From positions 2,090,327 through 2,154,326 of the forward strand of contig CM021320.1 in assembly GCA_010645155.1 (NCBI GenBank): DNA of 64,000 nucleotides, read 5' to 3'. The DNA is from Tigriopus japonicus. Taxonomy: Eukaryota > Arthropoda > Copepoda > Harpacticoida > Harpacticidae. The position numbers and the translations under genes are program-made. Below, piece by piece: positions 23,261 to 31,885 of this stretch (positions are counted from its first letter, which is position 1; every line of letters starts with the position of its first letter). The notes beneath the pieces were generated by a model. The model made no database searches. It saw nothing but the letters and a program-made list of their open reading frames with translations, and was not told the DNA's origin.

Positions 23261-24476
23261 ACTCAAACATATTTAGTTCAGTACCAAAAACATCTACTGG
23301 AGTGTGATGCCAAAGCCGGAATGCACTTTCGCATTGATTTGAGTTATGATGGAGGTATCAATATAAATGCAATAATAAAGAACATCGTGTGTTATTCTTC
23401 CAATATATTGAAGGAAACAAATTATTCATTATTGTACATGTGTATGTATGTGTGTGCGAGGGCATGTGTGTCCACCAGATGGAAGCAAGCAAATAAATGC
23501 CAATCTTGAGCAAACACATGTTTCTTCTCGCCCGTTCGTCCAGTTCGAGCCCAAGGAAAAAGGGCCACAAAGATCAACCCTCCTCAACGAAGGAGTGAGC
23601 GAATTGGTGAAAGGAGGAAGAAGCAACAACGCAAGGGACTACTGATGATGAAGAACACGATGATGAAGTTGAAGAGGCAGAAACTCAAGTTTACTTCATT
23701 TCGCTCTCCCGTCCCTCCCATTTCTCGGCCAACTGGTCACAATTGATGCCCACCTAAAATTCAAGCATCCACTCGTGAGTGCAAGTGATGAAAAAATGTT
23801 CCCTCCTTTTTGTGTAATTATTGTAGTAAATTGAGGGTGAAACGACCGACTCGGTAAAACTGCCTTCGGCGGAAAACTCTTTTGTTGGAAAGCGGCATTG
23901 AGCCTCATAGTTATTTGATTATGATTAGTGCGAGCTCGGCTAAATTCATGTCATGAATTTTGTTTCACCTTAATTACCGAAACTGTTCGACTACACTTAT
24001 GTAGAACCTGGGAAGTAGTTGGCAGGCAGTACATTTTCAATCGATTCCGTTGTCGGTATCGTCAATCAAATGAGCTTGGAATTCCTTACAAGTCATTTGC
24101 TTGTTAGAAGAGGGACTGAGATGCGGCCCAAACCGAAAGTCTACATAGTACAAGGTAGATCGGAAGAAGCGGAAAGAAAGAAGAAGTCGTCATCTTCGTT
24201 CTGTCCACCCCTAATCTCAGTCATAATTTCTCGACTCATTTGTCCCTTAAAAGGCCTGAGCCCTTGTCTGTGGCCAAAAACTACAGACAAAAACATCCAT
24301 TAATCAGATTCCAAAAGAATCCCCAGTGTTTTAAGATGCGAAAGAAAAGATAAATGGGGAGATGATAGCATGGCAGCTTGTGGTAACCGCCCAATTCGTT
24401 TTCAAGTCCCAAGATACCTGATAGATACTAGTTTGTATCCGAGTACTATTCAAATGCCAGCCACATGGTGCAATTG
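23261..24476. other. Intergenic, between the cyclase-like gene and PdxS 3' end
   Basis: This is the space between the plus-strand cyclase-like stop codon and the minus-strand PdxS stop. It contains a short TG-rich microsatellite near 23435-23460 and no exon that I recognise. The 3' untranslated regions of both convergent genes are expected here. Confidence 0.6.
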
Positions 24477-27400
24477 CTACCAAACGGCTACAAAATACCA
24501 AGAATATAATCTCAGGGCAACAATATGTTTTCTATCAAAGTTTACCATGGGTTCACCCAGGTCCTCGCTCAATTCTGCCAATTTCTCCTTATTCTTATAA
24601 TGGGTGACGGCTTGAACCATAGCATGAGCCCGTTTCTTCGGGCAGTTGCTCTTGAAGATCCCAGAACCCACGAAGACTCCATCAACTCCCAACTGCATGA
24701 GTAGGCTCACATCCGCAGGAGTGGCTAAAAAAAGAGGATTACAAAGAATCTATGGTATTGCCCTCGGGAATTTAACTTTAGAACACTCACCCAATCCCCC
24801 AGCGGCAAAGTTGACCACGGGTAAACGGCCTAACTTGGCAGTCTCACGCAATAAATCCACAGGGACTTGAATTTGCTTGGCATACGAGAAGAGCTCGGAA
24901 TCGTCCATGGCTTGAGCCAGGCGAATCTCACGATTGATGGTACGAGCGTGATGAACGGCATTAACCACATTACCTAGAAAATGATCAGGGTATTAAAAGC
25001 AGGTAACACAACGTGGCAACGAATTGTCGGTTTGATCACGATTGATTGGATAAGTCTGATATAGAATTGGACATGTTGTATCCGCCTCCCATAAAATTCC
25101 GATTCCCAGAAGGCCTCCAAGCTCTGGCTGATTGAACTCGGCGGAGAGACCGAGATTGAGTTTGCAATTCTTTCTCGCGCTTCAGTCGATTCAATTTCTC
25201 TTCTCGGAGCTTTTGATACATTTTTGTCACATCTACCAGTTTTCGTTTGACCACGTGGTAATCGTCTAAATGTTTCTCGATCTTGATCTTTAGCTCCTTG
25301 ATTTGGCTTCGGTACATGTTGTTTTCGGCGTAGAGGCCCAATTGTTGATCTGATTTTTTCATAAGCTCCTTTTTCAGATCTCGGATCTCATCGAGCACAT
25401 CAACCCCTGGATGCCTGGCTAAAGAGGCTCGAAGATCCTGGATCACTTTATCTTTGTCATCGATCAAGGCCTCTTTTTCCACAATCGACTGGTGTCGTTT
25501 GAGAAGTAGCTTCTGGAGAAAGTTAATCTTTTGAATCATTTCCATGGTGGATGGGTCATTGCCTTCCAACTTGCGCCACCGATGCACGTTCAAAGGATTC
25601 TCATTCTCCATCTTGAGGGATTTAACTTTGCACCGTTCTTTTAAAAGTTCCTTCTGCAGATGAAGAACCTCCTTCTTGGTCTCTTCGAGTGTCTGAGTGC
25701 CCTTCGAAAACTTATCGCACTCTTGTTTGAGGCGCTTAATCTCCAGCTTCAAAATGCGAATATCCTCCTCCTTCTCATTAAATTTACATTCTCCTCGAGC
25801 TAAAGCCTTTTCCTGAATCTGGCATCGTCTTACAAGAGTGGCTAGATCCTCCTCTTTGGTGGCAAATTTGGAATTGAGCAACGAGCGTTCATTGAAGGCT
25901 TGTTCCAACTTGCTTTGACATTGGGTCAATTCTTGCTCCACATTGGAATGTCGTTGATTGAGCATTTGGAAGCTCTTTTCCACCTCCTTGCTCTTGTGAC
26001 GCATGGTGTTAGCCTCTTCCTTGGATTTGTCGATTTCTCGCTGTAATTCTTCTTTGTCCTTGAGCAGCTTTTGTCGCTCTTGATTTTCTTTAGTCAACGC
26101 GGTTTCCTTGGCCACCATTTCTTCTTTGAGTTGGTCAAACTGATGCTGCAATACTCTCATTTTACTCTTAAGATCAGAAATTTCATCTTGAGCTTCGGTC
26201 AAGTTTTTGTTCAAAACGGTACGATCACTTCGAGCCGCTTCGTACAAATTGTGCTTCCTTTTGAGTTGATTTTCCATTTCTGAGAGATCTTTTCGATGGG
26301 TAAAAACGGTATGCTCAGCATCTCGAATTTCGTCCAATAATTGATCGACTCGTTTGGCCAAGGTCTGTGCCTCTTGAAGGTAGTGATCTCGTTCTTCTTC
26401 CAAAGTGGCAATGCAATGCCTTTGTTTGTCGGTCTTGGAGTCCAAAAAGTTATGGTTCTTCCTCAATTCGGCCACACTTTCTTGTCCCATTTGGATTTCA
26501 CGCTGTTGTTTGGCCACAGTTCCATTCAATCGTTTGATGTTGTGCTCAAGAACGGAGATTTCGTGTCGCTTCTCCTCCACTTTTTTCTTCTCCAAAAGGG
26601 AACTGTGTTTGAGCTCGGCAATCTGTTTCTTCAATTCCATAGTGTCCTCTTTGAGTTTGAATCGATCCGCTTCGAGATTCTCTTTACTTTTTTCTACACC
26701 CGCCAACCTCTTCTTGAGCTCTTCATATTCTTTGTGCGCCTTGAGGATTTCCATTTTCCCTTGAGAGATCACCTCATCTTTGGCACCCAAGTCTTGAGTG
26801 GTCTTCTTGCTCTCTTGCTCGATTTGTTGGATCGTCAGAGTTTGGAGTTCAATTTGACCTTCCAACTCTTCTACGTGAACGCTAAATGCTTGAAGTTGCT
26901 CCTGAAGCCCGTCGTTTAGTTTGCTTTTTTCCACGAGGGACTGTTCCAACTTCTGGACATTGCTTTGGATGGAATTCTTCTCGGCTTTTAGGACTTCAAT
27001 TTCTTTCACTTGCGTTTCCACCTCAGATTTCAGTTGCTTTACCTCCCGTTCAGTTCGTTCTTTCCTTCGAATTTCACGGTTCATCTCGTTCGTCTTGGAC
27101 TGCAATTCATTACTCAAACCCGAAATTTTCGATTCCAGCGACGATTTGTCGGTTCGAAGCGAGTCGATCTCTTCCATGTGTTTGCTTTCCGAAGCTCGCA
27201 ATTCGGTCACTTGGGACTTCAATAGATCTCGTTGATTCGTAAGCTCATCGCGGAGCTTCCTGAGCTCGTTCAAATTGGTGTCTTCCGCTCCCAAAGTCTT
27301 TTCTTCAATGACTTTGGTGAGATTCTGAATCTCGGTATTCAGAGCCTCGATGGTTTCCCTAGCCCTCTCCTCTCGTTCTTGAGTCATGTCCACCATTTTC

Positions 27401-29893
27401 CAGGCCTTATCAATCTCCTTCCTCAAACTAGCAATGGTGTTCTGATCGTCTTGCGACTTATCGAGTGCGGTGTCCACTTTTGATTGTTGATTGGCGATCT
27501 CGGACATCAGCTCCTGGCATTTGGTTGTCAGGCGTTTCTCGTTCAGATGAGACTTCTCGAGAGCGTTGAAGAGTTTTTCATATTCCCCTCGGAATCCATC
27601 CATGGCCTTATCTTGAGCAAGTTCAGCCAAGACCTCCTTGATTTCCACCACCAGCGTCTCGAAGGCATCATCATCCACGGGTACCGAGGTGATGGTAGGA
27701 TCTTCATTTTCTGAGCCCGTAATATCTTCATTTTCACTAACCTCCATGCTCACGAAGTTGATCTAATTCTCTTATTACTTGTCGGCGTATCGATCCAACA
27801 CAATCCAGTTTTGTTTCATGCTAGATCACAACAGCCCCTCGAAAAAGTTACGGGGTTTCTACTTTCGAGTCCTACCTGTTCCAGCTTCTCCCTTGGTCCT
27901 GATCATGGCTGCTCCTTCGGCGATTCTTCTCAGAGCCTCTCCAAGGTTCCTCGCTCCGCAAACAAACGGCACTTTGAAAGCTCTTTTATCGACATGGTGC
28001 TCATCATCAGCCGGTGTCAACACTGGAAATAGTAGGAAAGTGGTAGCTTTTTGCTAGTATCTTTGTCTACCTTTGGTGTACTAATGGCAAACGCCTTTCA
28101 AAATTGGTCATGAAATGTCACAAGAGCTTTCAAGATTCAGATCATTTCGTTTTTTTTTAATCGCAAATTGCAAAAATGAAAGTTTTTCATTGTCATGACT
28201 TTCAACAAGTGAATAGTATATAATAAAGCAAGGTATTAGTCAAAATCTCAAAATGTGCACCTTTTTCTGCAGAAGCGAAGAAAGTTTAAGTGAAGTGCTT
28301 TGTATGAATAGGCACTAGAAGTAGAATTGTTTGGAGGAATCTGGATCCTTTGAATGGCCTTTTTAGTATTAGCATGTTTGGACCTTTCAAATTCTAACAA
28401 GTTGCCTTAGCCTTACCAATCGTATTTTTTACATGTATGACTTTATTTTAGAGATGAAATTCGAGGGTGCGAGTTAGTCACTTTAAAGCTTACAGTCACT
28501 TTGTTTTTGCTTCCCTCCTTTTTTTTATTTTGCTCATCTTTAACTTTACGGCCTGTGAGCCTTGTTCCTCGGGAATCGAAGATATCTCGTTCTCTTCACA
28601 CTCCATGAAAACCAATGTTAACCTTAAAAAGAACTTTAGCTTGAATATTATACCAAATAATAAAGTACAGGCAAAATGATGGTGCTGGAGAACAAGTTGT
28701 CAGTTAAATAGGGTGCATGTTGACTCCGAACATAAAATCAAGTAAAAATCATGGCTCACGGGCTATACTCAAGCATGTACTTTAGTACATCCGAGCGTGA
28801 CACCTTACCCAGGTTTATTCCATCTGTGCCAGATGAGAGAGCGAAACAAGAAAAAATGCATCACTTTTGATTTGCTTTTAAATGTGGTTGTTAATTTCTC
28901 TTTATAACATTTAATGAAGTGATAAATTTGTTTCCAATGTGACATCTCAGGAGGAGGTATCCAGAACAAGCAATATTAGAATACGCAATATTTGTGTTCT
29001 GAAAAAGAAAAGTCAATAAATCTTGACGAAATCTAAAATGATGTAGCTCCTTCCAGATTCAATTGAGTTATATAAGATAACTTATTAAGGGGACAGAACA
29101 TGCTAGTTCAAGCTTCTTAATTTTCACAACAATTTACCTGCCGTGAGGGGAAGAAAGCCATAAAAAAGCAAAAGAAGATTAGTGCAAAGCTTAAAGGAAC
29201 TATAAACTTCAATACAAGTGCACAAGAGAGTTTGGGGTTTTCCCAATGTATTTGAAGAGACTAACAAAGATTATTTCACTTCTTCATTCTACCACGCCTG
29301 TTTCCACTAGCTTTTTGTTACTTTCACCAATATTAGGGTTTTTTTATCGAAGGCAATGATTGCTTCAAATTGCTTATGTCTAAGCGAACGCAAACAGTGT
29401 CTATTGTTAAGATTAGTAAGTTGTTTAGATGAACAAAAGCAACGCTGACGTGACATTAGAATCACTTTTCCCCTCTTACCTTCTGACTCGTCAATCATAT
29501 CCACCCCCAATGCTTCCAAAATTTGAGCCTCGGCAAAATGACCGATTCTCACTTTGGCAAATACAGGAATGGTGACAGCAGCCATGATTTCTTTAATCAA
29601 TTTTGGATCAGACATCCTAGACACCCCACCATCACGACGAATATCAGCCGGAACCCGTTCCAATGCCATCACAGCACAAGCCTAGAATCCAATTCAAAAA
29701 CATTAGAAACGATCTGTATTTCAAATAACGCTCATTCGAAAAGTCTCAAAAGTCCTACCCCAGCTTCCTCAGCAATCCTGGCTTGCTCAGCGTTGACCAC
29801 ATCCATAATAAGTCCACCTTTGGACATCTGAGCCAAGCCCGATTTGACCACGAAGGATCCCTCAGTTCGATGACCATCTTTTTCGGATGACAT
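24477..29893 (-). CDS. PdxS/SNZ: Pyridoxal 5'-phosphate synthase subunit PdxS (SNZ/PDX1)
   Basis: The synthase subunit makes PLP from ribose 5-phosphate, glyceraldehyde 3-phosphate and ammonia supplied by PdxT. Five exons splice in phase on the minus strand: 29893-29759, 29681-29480, 28022-27876, 24973-24791 and 24724-24477, giving about 304 aa, close to the usual 290-300. Landmarks are [14 protein letters not shown] (Asp31), [21 protein letters not shown] (Lys88, the Schiff-base lysine), [24 protein letters not shown] (Lys156, the second catalytic lysine), [16 protein letters not shown] and [11 protein letters not shown]. All catalytic residues are present. The start is the ATG at 29893. Introns are 77, 1457, 2902 and 66 bp; the third contains the whole CFAP58 gene. 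Conservation stops at SEDLGEPMV; the last 22 or so codons do not match the family tail, and a GTAAAC donor at that point leaves room for a missed terminal exon. PdxT lies divergently 650 bp away. Confidence 0.93.
25036..27747 (-). CDS. CFAP58: Cilia- and flagella-associated protein 58 (CCDC147), intronless, nested in PdxS
   Basis: A single open frame of 903 codons encodes an almost continuous coiled coil. Family landmarks are [20 protein letters not shown] near residue 100, [20 protein letters not shown] near the middle, [15 protein letters not shown], and [16 protein letters not shown] near residue 712. These match CFAP58, which acts in axoneme and sperm-flagellum assembly, and the length fits the family (about 870-900 aa). 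I use the ATG at 27747; an upstream in-frame GTG is not a credible start. The gene lies wholly inside PdxS intron 3, same strand. Only 128 bp separate PdxS exon 3 from its ATG, and 62 bp separate its stop from PdxS exon 4. That 62 bp contains no AATAAA or ATTAAA, so its transcript probably runs into PdxS exonic sequence. I see no poly(A) relic that would mark a retrocopy. Confidence 0.9.
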   Translation of the reverse strand: MEVSENEDITGSENEDPTITSVPVDDDAFETLVVEIKEVLAELAQDKAMDGFRGEYEKLFNALEKSHLNEKRLTTKCQELMSEIANQQSKVDTALDKSQDDQNTIASLRKEIDKAWKMVDMTQEREERARETIEALNTEIQNLTKVIEEKTLGAEDTNLNELRKLRDELTNQRDLLKSQVTELRASESKHMEEIDSLRTDKSSLESKISGLSNELQSKTNEMNREIRRKERTEREVKQLKSEVETQVKEIEVLKAEKNSIQSNVQKLEQSLVEKSKLNDGLQEQLQAFSVHVEELEGQIELQTLTIQQIEQESKKTTQDLGAKDEVISQGKMEILKAHKEYEELKKRLAGVEKSKENLEADRFKLKEDTMELKKQIAELKHSSLLEKKKVEEKRHEISVLEHNIKRLNGTVAKQQREIQMGQESVAELRKNHNFLDSKTDKQRHCIATLEEERDHYLQEAQTLAKRVDQLLDEIRDAEHTVFTHRKDLSEMENQLKRKHNLYEAARSDRTVLNKNLTEAQDEISDLKSKMRVLQHQFDQLKEEMVAKETALTKENQERQKLLKDKEELQREIDKSKEEANTMRHKSKEVEKSFQMLNQRHSNVEQELTQCQSKLEQAFNERSLLNSKFATKEEDLATLVRRCQIQEKALARGECKFNEKEEDIRILKLEIKRLKQECDKFSKGTQTLEETKKEVLHLQKELLKERCKVKSLKMENENPLNVHRWRKLEGNDPSTMEMIQKINFLQKLLLKRHQSIVEKEALIDDKDKVIQDLRASLARHPGVDVLDEIRDLKKELMKKSDQQLGLYAENNMYRSQIKELKIKIEKHLDDYHVVKRKLVDVTKMYQKLREEKLNRLKREKELQTQSRSLRRVQSARAWRPSGNRNFMGGGYNMSNSISDLSNQS
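28023..29479. other. PdxS intron 2 (1457 bp)
   Basis: The donor GTAAGAGG follows the DESE codons and the acceptor TTTCCAG precedes TG TTG ACA, keeping phase 1. I see no gene, RNA or transposon inside; it is AT-rich single-copy-looking sequence. Confidence 0.75.
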
Positions 29894-30543
29894 TTCTGTT
29901 CCTGAAACTTGAACATCGCCAATGAGAGCTTAGTCAGTTTTGAAGAGAATATGTTGTGAACATTGGTTAAAGATTTATGTACCTGGACCCATGTTGATGT
30001 GACTGCGGTCAAAGCTGCAATTGAACTGATTGATATTGAGCTATCGATTGAAAACGAAAGATCGTCAGAGAGGATCTTGGATTTCTCCGTTGATGGAATT
30101 GTGGAGATTATGCAATGACAAGATCTGGATTGGGCGTTCACAACATTATCTTGAAGAATGCAATGGAAAAAATTCCAAAGATCGACAAGTTTGACAAGAT
30201 TGGTGTTGGATGAAAGCGGATACTTGTGCTGAAAATGGGAGGTCCACAAGAATGAGCTCTAATTTAAGTACGTTGAGGCACAAAAATCGTTGTCATACGC
30301 GTACCAAAAGTACAAACATTAAACGTACAAGTTCTCCTACTTTTTGAAAACTTGAACTTGTTACGAATTGAATACAGACATCCACAATTAAGGTTCATGG
30401 AGCAAAGAGCAGATCTCATCTTCCAAATTCTTTGGGGTACTTAGTGGCATTTCATTTGTCAAAAGCTTAACCTCATCCCCAATTGCACTTAGAAACCAAT
30501 TTGCTTTTGTCAGTAGTCAACTACACAGAGTTCTAGCCTTGCA
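29894..30543. promoter_or_regulatory. Shared divergent promoter region of PdxS and PdxT
   Basis: The ATG of PdxS (29893, minus) and that of PdxT (30544, plus) face away from each other across 650 bp with no other gene between them. Both 5' UTRs and promoters must fit here, which suggests coordinated expression of the two enzyme subunits. I cannot identify specific binding sites. The arrangement resembles the divergent SNZ-SNO pairs known from yeast. Confidence 0.6.
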
Positions 30544-31599
30544 ATGTCGGAAACTGTGACTATTGGCGTTTTGGCGTGTCAAGGAGCCTTTAGAGAGCAT
30601 CTGGTTGCTTTGAAACGAGTGGTCCAAGACCTCGAGTTGTCCCTCGATTTGGTGGAAGTGAGGAATGTTTCTCAATTGGATTCTAACCTCAGAGGTCTGA
30701 TTATTCCAGGTAATGATAATATCAATAATAATAATATGATCGAAGAAAAGGTGGGTCAATGTCAAGTTTCTGTCGTAGGTGGAGAATCCACGACCTTAAA
30801 CATATTCTTCGGACAAGAGGATTTTTTGAGCAAACTGAAACAATGGATGAGTTCCACAAACCCTCCTCCGATTGTGTGGGGAACCTGTGCAGGTCTCATT
30901 GTATTGTCGGATCAAGTGGAACATGAAAAATCTGGAGGACAACTAGAGGTTTGAAATACGTTGCACAATTCATATTTATGAGTCTCATTTCCACTTATTG
31001 CTGGATTGTTTCATACAATTAATCAAATTGAGTTACATGCAGCTCAATCCGATGTAATTTCTTCTTTTTTTCCCTTGTAATGAAAAAATCAACAAATCTT
31101 AAAAGAAGACGTATACTATTAATGTAAGAAATACAAACCTTATGATATTGCGGATGAATCGAAAAATAGGGAAAGTAAGCTGAAGATGATTGTTCTAATG
31201 TTCATAACATGCTACCTATTCAATTTGTAGATTGGGGGATTGGCTGTAACTACGTCCAGGAACTTTTTCGGTCGTCAAAACAAAAGCTTCGAACAAAAAT
31301 TGGACTTAGTATCTGAAGAACTGGTGAACTGCCCACCCTACGCTAAAAACCCCGCCTTCCCCGGAATTTTCATTCGCGCCCCTGGCATTCAATCCATCGA
31401 ACCTGACCGTAATGTCCGAGTCCTAGCCGAATTACGAGGCTATCCGGGCCTACCAAAAACTAGTGTAGTAGCAGTGGAACAAGGTTCACTTATGGCGTGT
31501 TCTTTCCATCCCGAATTGTCAACGGATCTACGATTCCATGCCTATTTTGTCCGAAAAGTCCTAAGGAATTCACTTCCGGTCAATTTTTCCACGCAATAA
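30544..31599 (+). CDS. PdxT/SNO: Pyridoxal 5'-phosphate synthase glutaminase subunit PdxT (SNO/PDX2)
   Basis: This class-I glutamine amidotransferase releases ammonia from glutamine for PdxS. Exons 30544-30709, 30779-30948 and 31231-31599 splice to 234 aa, slightly longer than typical bacterial PdxT (about 190-200). Landmarks are IGVLACQGAFREH at the N-terminus, GLIIPGGESTT (the oxyanion strand) formed across intron 1, WGTCAGLI with nucleophile Cys92, SRNFFGRQNKSF, FIRAPGI, and CSFHPELSTD with His205 and Glu207. The catalytic triad is therefore complete. Intron 1 (69 bp) is a multiple of three without a stop, so retention would insert 23 residues into the PGG motif; the splice gives the exact family motif and I take it as correct. 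An AATAAA overlaps the stop codon and a second lies near 31682. Intron-bearing structure argues against bacterial contamination. Confidence 0.93.
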
Positions 31600-31600: not shown

Positions 31601-31885
31601 TGTACAGCGAACCCACTCAACCTCATTTTGGATCTACGTCAAAAAGAAACTGCAAGACGTTTTACATTGAGAAGAACTGACAATAAAATAATTAAGCAGT
31701 TATCGACTCACACTTTTTTCTCATTTTTTTACCTTAAAAGTCGTATTTTTAGCTCATTGGCGGACCTATGAAATGTAGTTAAAGGAACAAAGCAATTTAA
31801 AAAGTTATGGAACACATCAAAACGGCTAGCTTTGTCTAATTTATGGTCTTTGAATGTAAACAAAACAAGTTCACATGGTTGAAAC

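Follow-up and report, generated by a model that had tools for sequence, protein, structure and literature searches.

Within the window, a 64,000-nucleotide stretch of the Tigriopus japonicus genome (positions 2,090,327-2,154,326 of its contig, in an assembly of 194,852,151 bases and 158 contigs), the genes for PdxS and PdxT, the two subunits of pyridoxal 5'-phosphate (PLP) synthase, lie head to head, 2.09 Mb into the contig. PdxS, on the minus strand, encodes 308 amino acids in seven exons, and PdxT, on the plus strand, encodes 234 amino acids in three. Exons of both models were joined at GT-AG sites; all eight introns are of this type and preserve the reading frame.

Each PdxS exon is placed by splice fit on the minus strand. 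Exon 1 (29983..29992) is a 10-bp mini-exon that supplies MGP and one further base ahead of a GT donor, and exons 2 (29759..29901), 3 (29480..29681) and 4 (27876..28022) carry Asp37, Lys94 and Lys162, respectively. Exon 5 (24791..24973) is followed by exon 6 (24546..24724), which ends in LGEPM. The true C-terminus is encoded by exon 7 (23691..23753), which reads VGINCDQLAEKWEGRESEMK and a stop codon and is matched by the T. californicus record P0001, whose C-terminus is identical. Introns 1 to 6 measure 81, 77, 1457, 2902, 66 and 792 bp. The sequence-only reading that preceded this analysis had counted five exons and ended the gene at 24477; it had overlooked the 10-bp exon 1 and exon 7, and the stop codon at 24477 lies inside intron 6. 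A C-terminus at that position would represent read-through past the donor after LGEPM, which the T. californicus C-terminus rules out. The active-site residues named in the same reading as Asp31, Lys88 and Lys156 are present, but in the longer model they become Asp37, Lys94 and Lys162, an offset consistent with a start at the internal Met7.

At exon 2, two AG acceptors lie 6 bp apart (29901-29909, minus strand), and their alternative use would yield MGPGTEM or MGPVSGTEM. These same N-termini occur in the T. californicus PdxS records P0004 and P0001, respectively; both fit the 10-bp exon 1, and the occurrence of the two forms is the expected outcome of tandem acceptors.

PdxT comprises exons 1 (30544..30709), 2 (30779..30948) and 3 (31231..31599) on the plus strand, separated by introns of 69 and 282 bp, with an AATAAA at 31682 (plus strand) 3' of the last exon. 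All three are placed by splice fit, and profile matches further place exon 2, which contains Cys92, and exon 3, which contains His205, Glu207 and the stop codon. For this gene the earlier three-exon model agrees with ours, and the claimed Cys92/His205/Glu207 triad is seen in the spliced protein. Between the two start codons lies a 551-bp interval (29993..30543) that is a candidate shared promoter region. The divergent arrangement had been described correctly, but not its spacing: the figure of about 650 bp fits the shorter PdxS, whereas the distance from ATG to ATG is 551 bp once the mini-exon is included. Profile searches of the genome gave four exon matches to PF01680 and two to PF01174, all in open frames at this locus; they reported no further copies of PdxS or PdxT, and the counts are lower bounds.

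A CFAP58-like gene (25036..27747, minus strand) is nested in PdxS intron 4. It is intronless and lies on the same strand as its host. The open frame spans 908 codons, of which the sixth is the first Met; from this ATG (27747) to the stop codon at 25036-25038 the gene encodes 903 amino acids. The protein matches the CFAP58 central coiled coil (PF21771, 5.3e-45) and is the sole match to this profile in the genome. Its lack of introns hints at a retrocopy that took its parent's place. To our knowledge, copepod sperm lack flagella. A 61-residue piece of the CFAP58-like protein recurs without a mismatch in TCAL_15157 (P0004), a T. californicus model that begins as PdxS, so the nesting is very probably common to both Tigriopus species. 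In TCAL_15157 the piece of the nested gene sits inside PdxS, and it is not in P0001; its inclusion is probably an annotation error. The CFAP58-like stop codon lies only 62 bp away from PdxS exon 5; moreover, neither AATAAA nor ATTAAA occurs on the minus strand from that stop codon down to 23400. For these two reasons, the CFAP58-like and PdxS transcripts may have a common 3' end.

The surroundings are eukaryotic. Eight further open frames, all lying at 44 to 59.4 kb of the window, were scanned with Pfam; six matched (leucine-rich repeats, NF-YA, DNase II, CCDC50, Gpi1 and DOMON) and two matched nothing.

Family assignment and conserved residues

Profile comparison of the spliced proteins, which the earlier reading had proposed, places both above curated equivalog cut-offs: PdxS scores 477.2 bits against NCBIfam TIGR00343 (cut-off 438.45), and PdxT scores 151.2 bits against TIGR03800 (cut-off 105.55). 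In PdxS, Asp37, Lys94 and Lys162 lie in the motifs MDVV, AKVRIGH and RTKGEAG; they presumably have the active-site roles of the Asp and the two lysines of the bacterial enzyme. In PdxT, Cys92 lies in GTCAG, and His205 and Glu207 lie in FHPE. Conservation was assessed more broadly in alignments with length-filtered listed homologues, T. californicus being excluded from the PdxS set. None of 145 PdxS columns that are at least 95% conserved deviates (221 homologues), nor does any of 48 such PdxT columns (118 homologues), although both sets consist of best search matches and are thus biased toward close relatives. Relatives of solved structure amount to 32 distinct sequences for PdxS (PdxS/PDX1/SNZ1 chains) and 12 for PdxT (mostly PdxT/Pdx2 chains). 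As far as sequence can establish, the PLP synthase pair of PdxS and PdxT is confirmed as genuine, with both members intact.

The genome also encodes the salvage enzymes pyridoxamine phosphate oxidase (PNPO; TIGR00558, 243 bits versus a cut-off of 180) and pyridoxal kinase (TIGR00687, 267 bits versus a cut-off of 144.5). Given their presence alongside PdxS and PdxT, T. japonicus is probably capable of both de novo synthesis and salvage of vitamin B6.

Homologues in animals and prokaryotes

The closest named homologues among the matches listed come from T. californicus, whose PdxS (P0001, recorded as 'pyridoxal 5'-phosphate synthase subunit SNZERR-like') is 97% identical and whose PdxT (TCAL_03067, P0121) is 83% identical to the T. 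japonicus protein. Both T. californicus proteins are on contigs of equal listed size, 16,497,411 bases. Between the two species PdxT retains 83-84% identity versus 97% for PdxS, with the conserved PdxT columns unchanged. Furthermore, an unlabelled public contig of 2,983 bases (P0122) agrees almost completely with the window across exons 1 and 2 of PdxT and the introns.

Among the best 120 homologues, 12 animal species are named for PdxS and eight for PdxT, including sponges, cnidarians, molluscs, annelids and tunicates. T. californicus is the only species in both lists of 120, which means that, of the species listed, Tigriopus alone is seen to have the pair. Neither insects nor decapods are named for PdxS or PdxT among the 120 best-scoring of some 8000 matches, a sample too small for absence from these groups to follow. 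The pair of T. japonicus adds one more species to a known family in which the T. californicus PdxS was already named. The suggestion in the sequence-only reading that an animal PLP synthase pair is a striking exception was overstated, given the animal species listed; what stands is that the pair is animal, intron-bearing and not a contaminant.

Plain identity was dropped as an argument against bacterial origin. When prokaryotic genomes were scanned with the T. californicus PdxS, identity reached at best 75% among the 80 loci kept, but P0114, a Chloroflexota protein (Litorilinea), shows 80% identity across 94% of the T. japonicus query, and non-copepod animal PdxS proteins, among the matches listed, are 76-82% identical. 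With P0114 as near as non-copepod animals, the case for descent rests on trees. The prokaryotic PdxS proteins nearest to the copepod protein are mainly from Chloroflexota (P0114; loci L009 to L088).

Phylogenetic placement

The main PdxS tree holds 62 rows drawn from 235 listed homologues, 80 prokaryotic loci and PDB chains. In it T. japonicus and T. californicus are sisters (support 100/99). They belong to a 14-row clade (100/99) whose other members are Caligus, also a copepod, and 11 rows without labels. A wider 31-row clade (100/100) takes in every named animal row, 12 in all (annelids, tunicates, molluscs, a cnidarian, a sponge and the copepods), along with 16 rows that carry no label, Stygamoeba and an unnamed EukProt row. 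This animal clade is united with fungi (96/88), and it contains none of the 12 bacterial rows, Litorilinea among them, and not the single archaeal row. No branch sets all bacteria apart from the remaining rows: three rows from Chloroflexota cluster with the two plant rows, hinting that Chloroflexota are a possible source of eukaryotic PDX1. Two placements are odd: the amoeba Stygamoeba (P0110) stands beside the sponge Halisarca inside the animal clade, and a row labelled Opistho-2 (P0350), which we take to be a holozoan label, stands among fungi. Contamination or separate transfers may account for both.

A quick PdxS tree was built from the window and 233 of the 235 listed homologues, leaving out P0004, which contains nested-gene sequence, and the overlong P0241. 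Its animal clade, Stygamoeba included, takes in 106 of the 119 rows from the window's own search (the best 120 listed without P0004). There the smallest set with Tigriopus and Caligus has four rows and a support of only 64, and for this reason the copepod clade rests on the 62-row tree.

Approximately unbiased (AU) tests on 35 PdxS rows rejected the union of Tigriopus with fungi (p 2.6e-5) or with bacteria (p 5.6e-5), as well as the union of copepods with fungi (p 4.1e-5). The 13 animal rows as one clade were not rejected (p 0.285), the free tree being 5.6 log units better.

For PdxT, the nine animal rows of a 55-row tree belong to a set of 22 (96/89) in which the other 13 are all unlabelled; Tigriopus adjoins four of these (95/90). 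With the 28 named rows, the nine animal rows form one clade (100/98) in which two sponges are closest to Tigriopus (89/73). AU tests on these 28 rows gave p 0.026 for Tigriopus with fungi, here filamentous ascomycetes only, p 0.0097 with bacteria and p 0.011 with plants. The Tigriopus stem is long (0.91 in the 55-row tree and 1.75 in the 28-row tree). Given this stem and the lower conservation of the protein, the placement of PdxT with animals is less secure than that of PdxS.

Discussion

We consider it very likely that this copepod carries a complete DXP-independent PLP synthase that has been passed down vertically since early animals, a proposal built on gene structure, family membership, conserved residues, tree placement and the presence of salvage enzymes. 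The choice between retention and transfer, left open in the sequence-only reading, is largely answered for retention by the trees and AU tests, in which both proteins group with animals. A joint clade with fungi or with bacteria is firmly rejected for PdxS and less firmly for PdxT, which favours retention over transfer.

The reaction, the formation of a complex and the co-regulation of the two genes are proposed by analogy with the known family. The Cys-His-Glu triad of PdxT would hydrolyse glutamine, and the released ammonia would be handed to PdxS. The 551-bp head-to-head interval could plausibly coordinate the expression of both genes.

Inherited genes might nevertheless have gone out of use for PLP synthesis, being relaxed or having taken on another role. 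PdxT is indeed less conserved than PdxS between the two Tigriopus species, and the salvage enzymes may make the pathway dispensable. However, neither protein deviates at a conserved column and the catalytic residues are intact, which leads us to regard disuse as improbable.

Gain of the pair from a fungus, by horizontal transfer into the copepod or crustacean lineage, would account for the head-to-head layout, since Pezizomycotina and Saccharomycotina have conserved SNZ1 and SNO1 as a divergent pair according to a gene-order survey (PMC2871058). The resemblance to the fungal pairing had been raised earlier alongside the question of transfer, but the proteins do not group with fungi. With PdxS among animals and both PdxS and PdxT separate from fungi in the trees, the layout is no sign of transfer. 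The AU tests largely refute this origin for PdxS and disfavour it for PdxT, making it very unlikely overall. We know of no SNZ/SNO (PdxS/PdxT) genes in mammals. In the same survey, the divergent SNZ1/SNO1 pair is coded Fp, Fs, M and Pr, and the legend gives M as mammals (PMC2871058); the code may instead stand for metazoa.

We give still less credence to a bacterial origin, from a symbiont or from food. There is a precedent among animals: Craig et al. 2008, as cited in PMC4901422 and PMC5664098, reportedly described vitamin B6 genes of the cyst nematode Heterodera glycines as gained by transfer, and Chloroflexota PdxS is close in plain identity. Against this, Litorilinea and the other prokaryotic rows fall outside the animal PdxS clade, the best of the kept prokaryotic loci stays at 75% identity to T. 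californicus PdxS, and the two genes contain eight introns; in the trees and AU tests a bacterial source is rejected for PdxS and disfavoured for PdxT. An assembly artefact or foreign scaffold is scarcely credible, as no evidence for misassembly was found at the PdxS-PdxT locus, which lies more than 2 Mb into its contig among eukaryotic neighbours, both proteins recur in T. californicus, one of whose PdxS models also includes the CFAP58-like sequence, and P0122 repeats part of PdxT; the earlier case against contamination from introns, nested gene and neighbours is thereby borne out.

The pair matters for how animal B6 nutrition is understood. One review holds that most animals do not encode de novo B6 enzymes (PMC6071262), and another that animals and humans are unable to synthesise vitamin B6, some sponges excepted (PMC7954711). 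An intact, apparently inherited pair in a laboratory crustacean genus would contradict the rule that animals cannot make B6 and makes it testable. Among open-licence PMC full texts, a set that most subscription papers fall outside, we found no report that copepods make B6, nor any work surveying animals for PdxS and PdxT. A bolder proposal, to which we give slightly less credence than to its negation, is that copepods are true B6 prototrophs whose head-to-head PdxS-PdxT pair, with a shared promoter, has been kept since the ancestor that animals share with fungi. If so, the B6 auxotrophy of other arthropods and of vertebrates would reflect repeated later losses and not an ancestral animal trait. 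Copepods are major prey in marine food webs, and their PdxS and PdxT bear on who supplies B6 there.

Comparison with known systems sets the copepod genes in context. T. californicus has PdxS and PdxT as T. japonicus does, with CFAP58-like sequence likewise inside its PdxS model; the two differ at the species level, more so in PdxT, and TCAL_15157 includes part of the nested gene. The sponge Suberites domuncula, whose SNZ and SNO were reportedly described by Seack et al. 2001 (cited in PMC7954711 and PMC3078890), likewise has an animal PLP synthase pair, and its SNO (P0126) is 47% identical over 97% of T. japonicus PdxT. Plant PDX1.3 and the bacterial PdxS and PdxT of solved structure belong to the same enzyme family but lie outside the animal clade. 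Fungal SNZ-SNO pairs share the two enzymes and the divergent layout (PMC2871058), but the protein trees set the copepod genes apart. Finally, the vitamin B6 genes of cyst nematodes (Heterodera, Globodera) are likewise de novo B6 genes in an animal and are treated as horizontally transferred (PMC4901422), whereas for the copepod pair the AU tests speak against the grouping with a non-animal donor that marks such transfer, and the pair groups with other animals.
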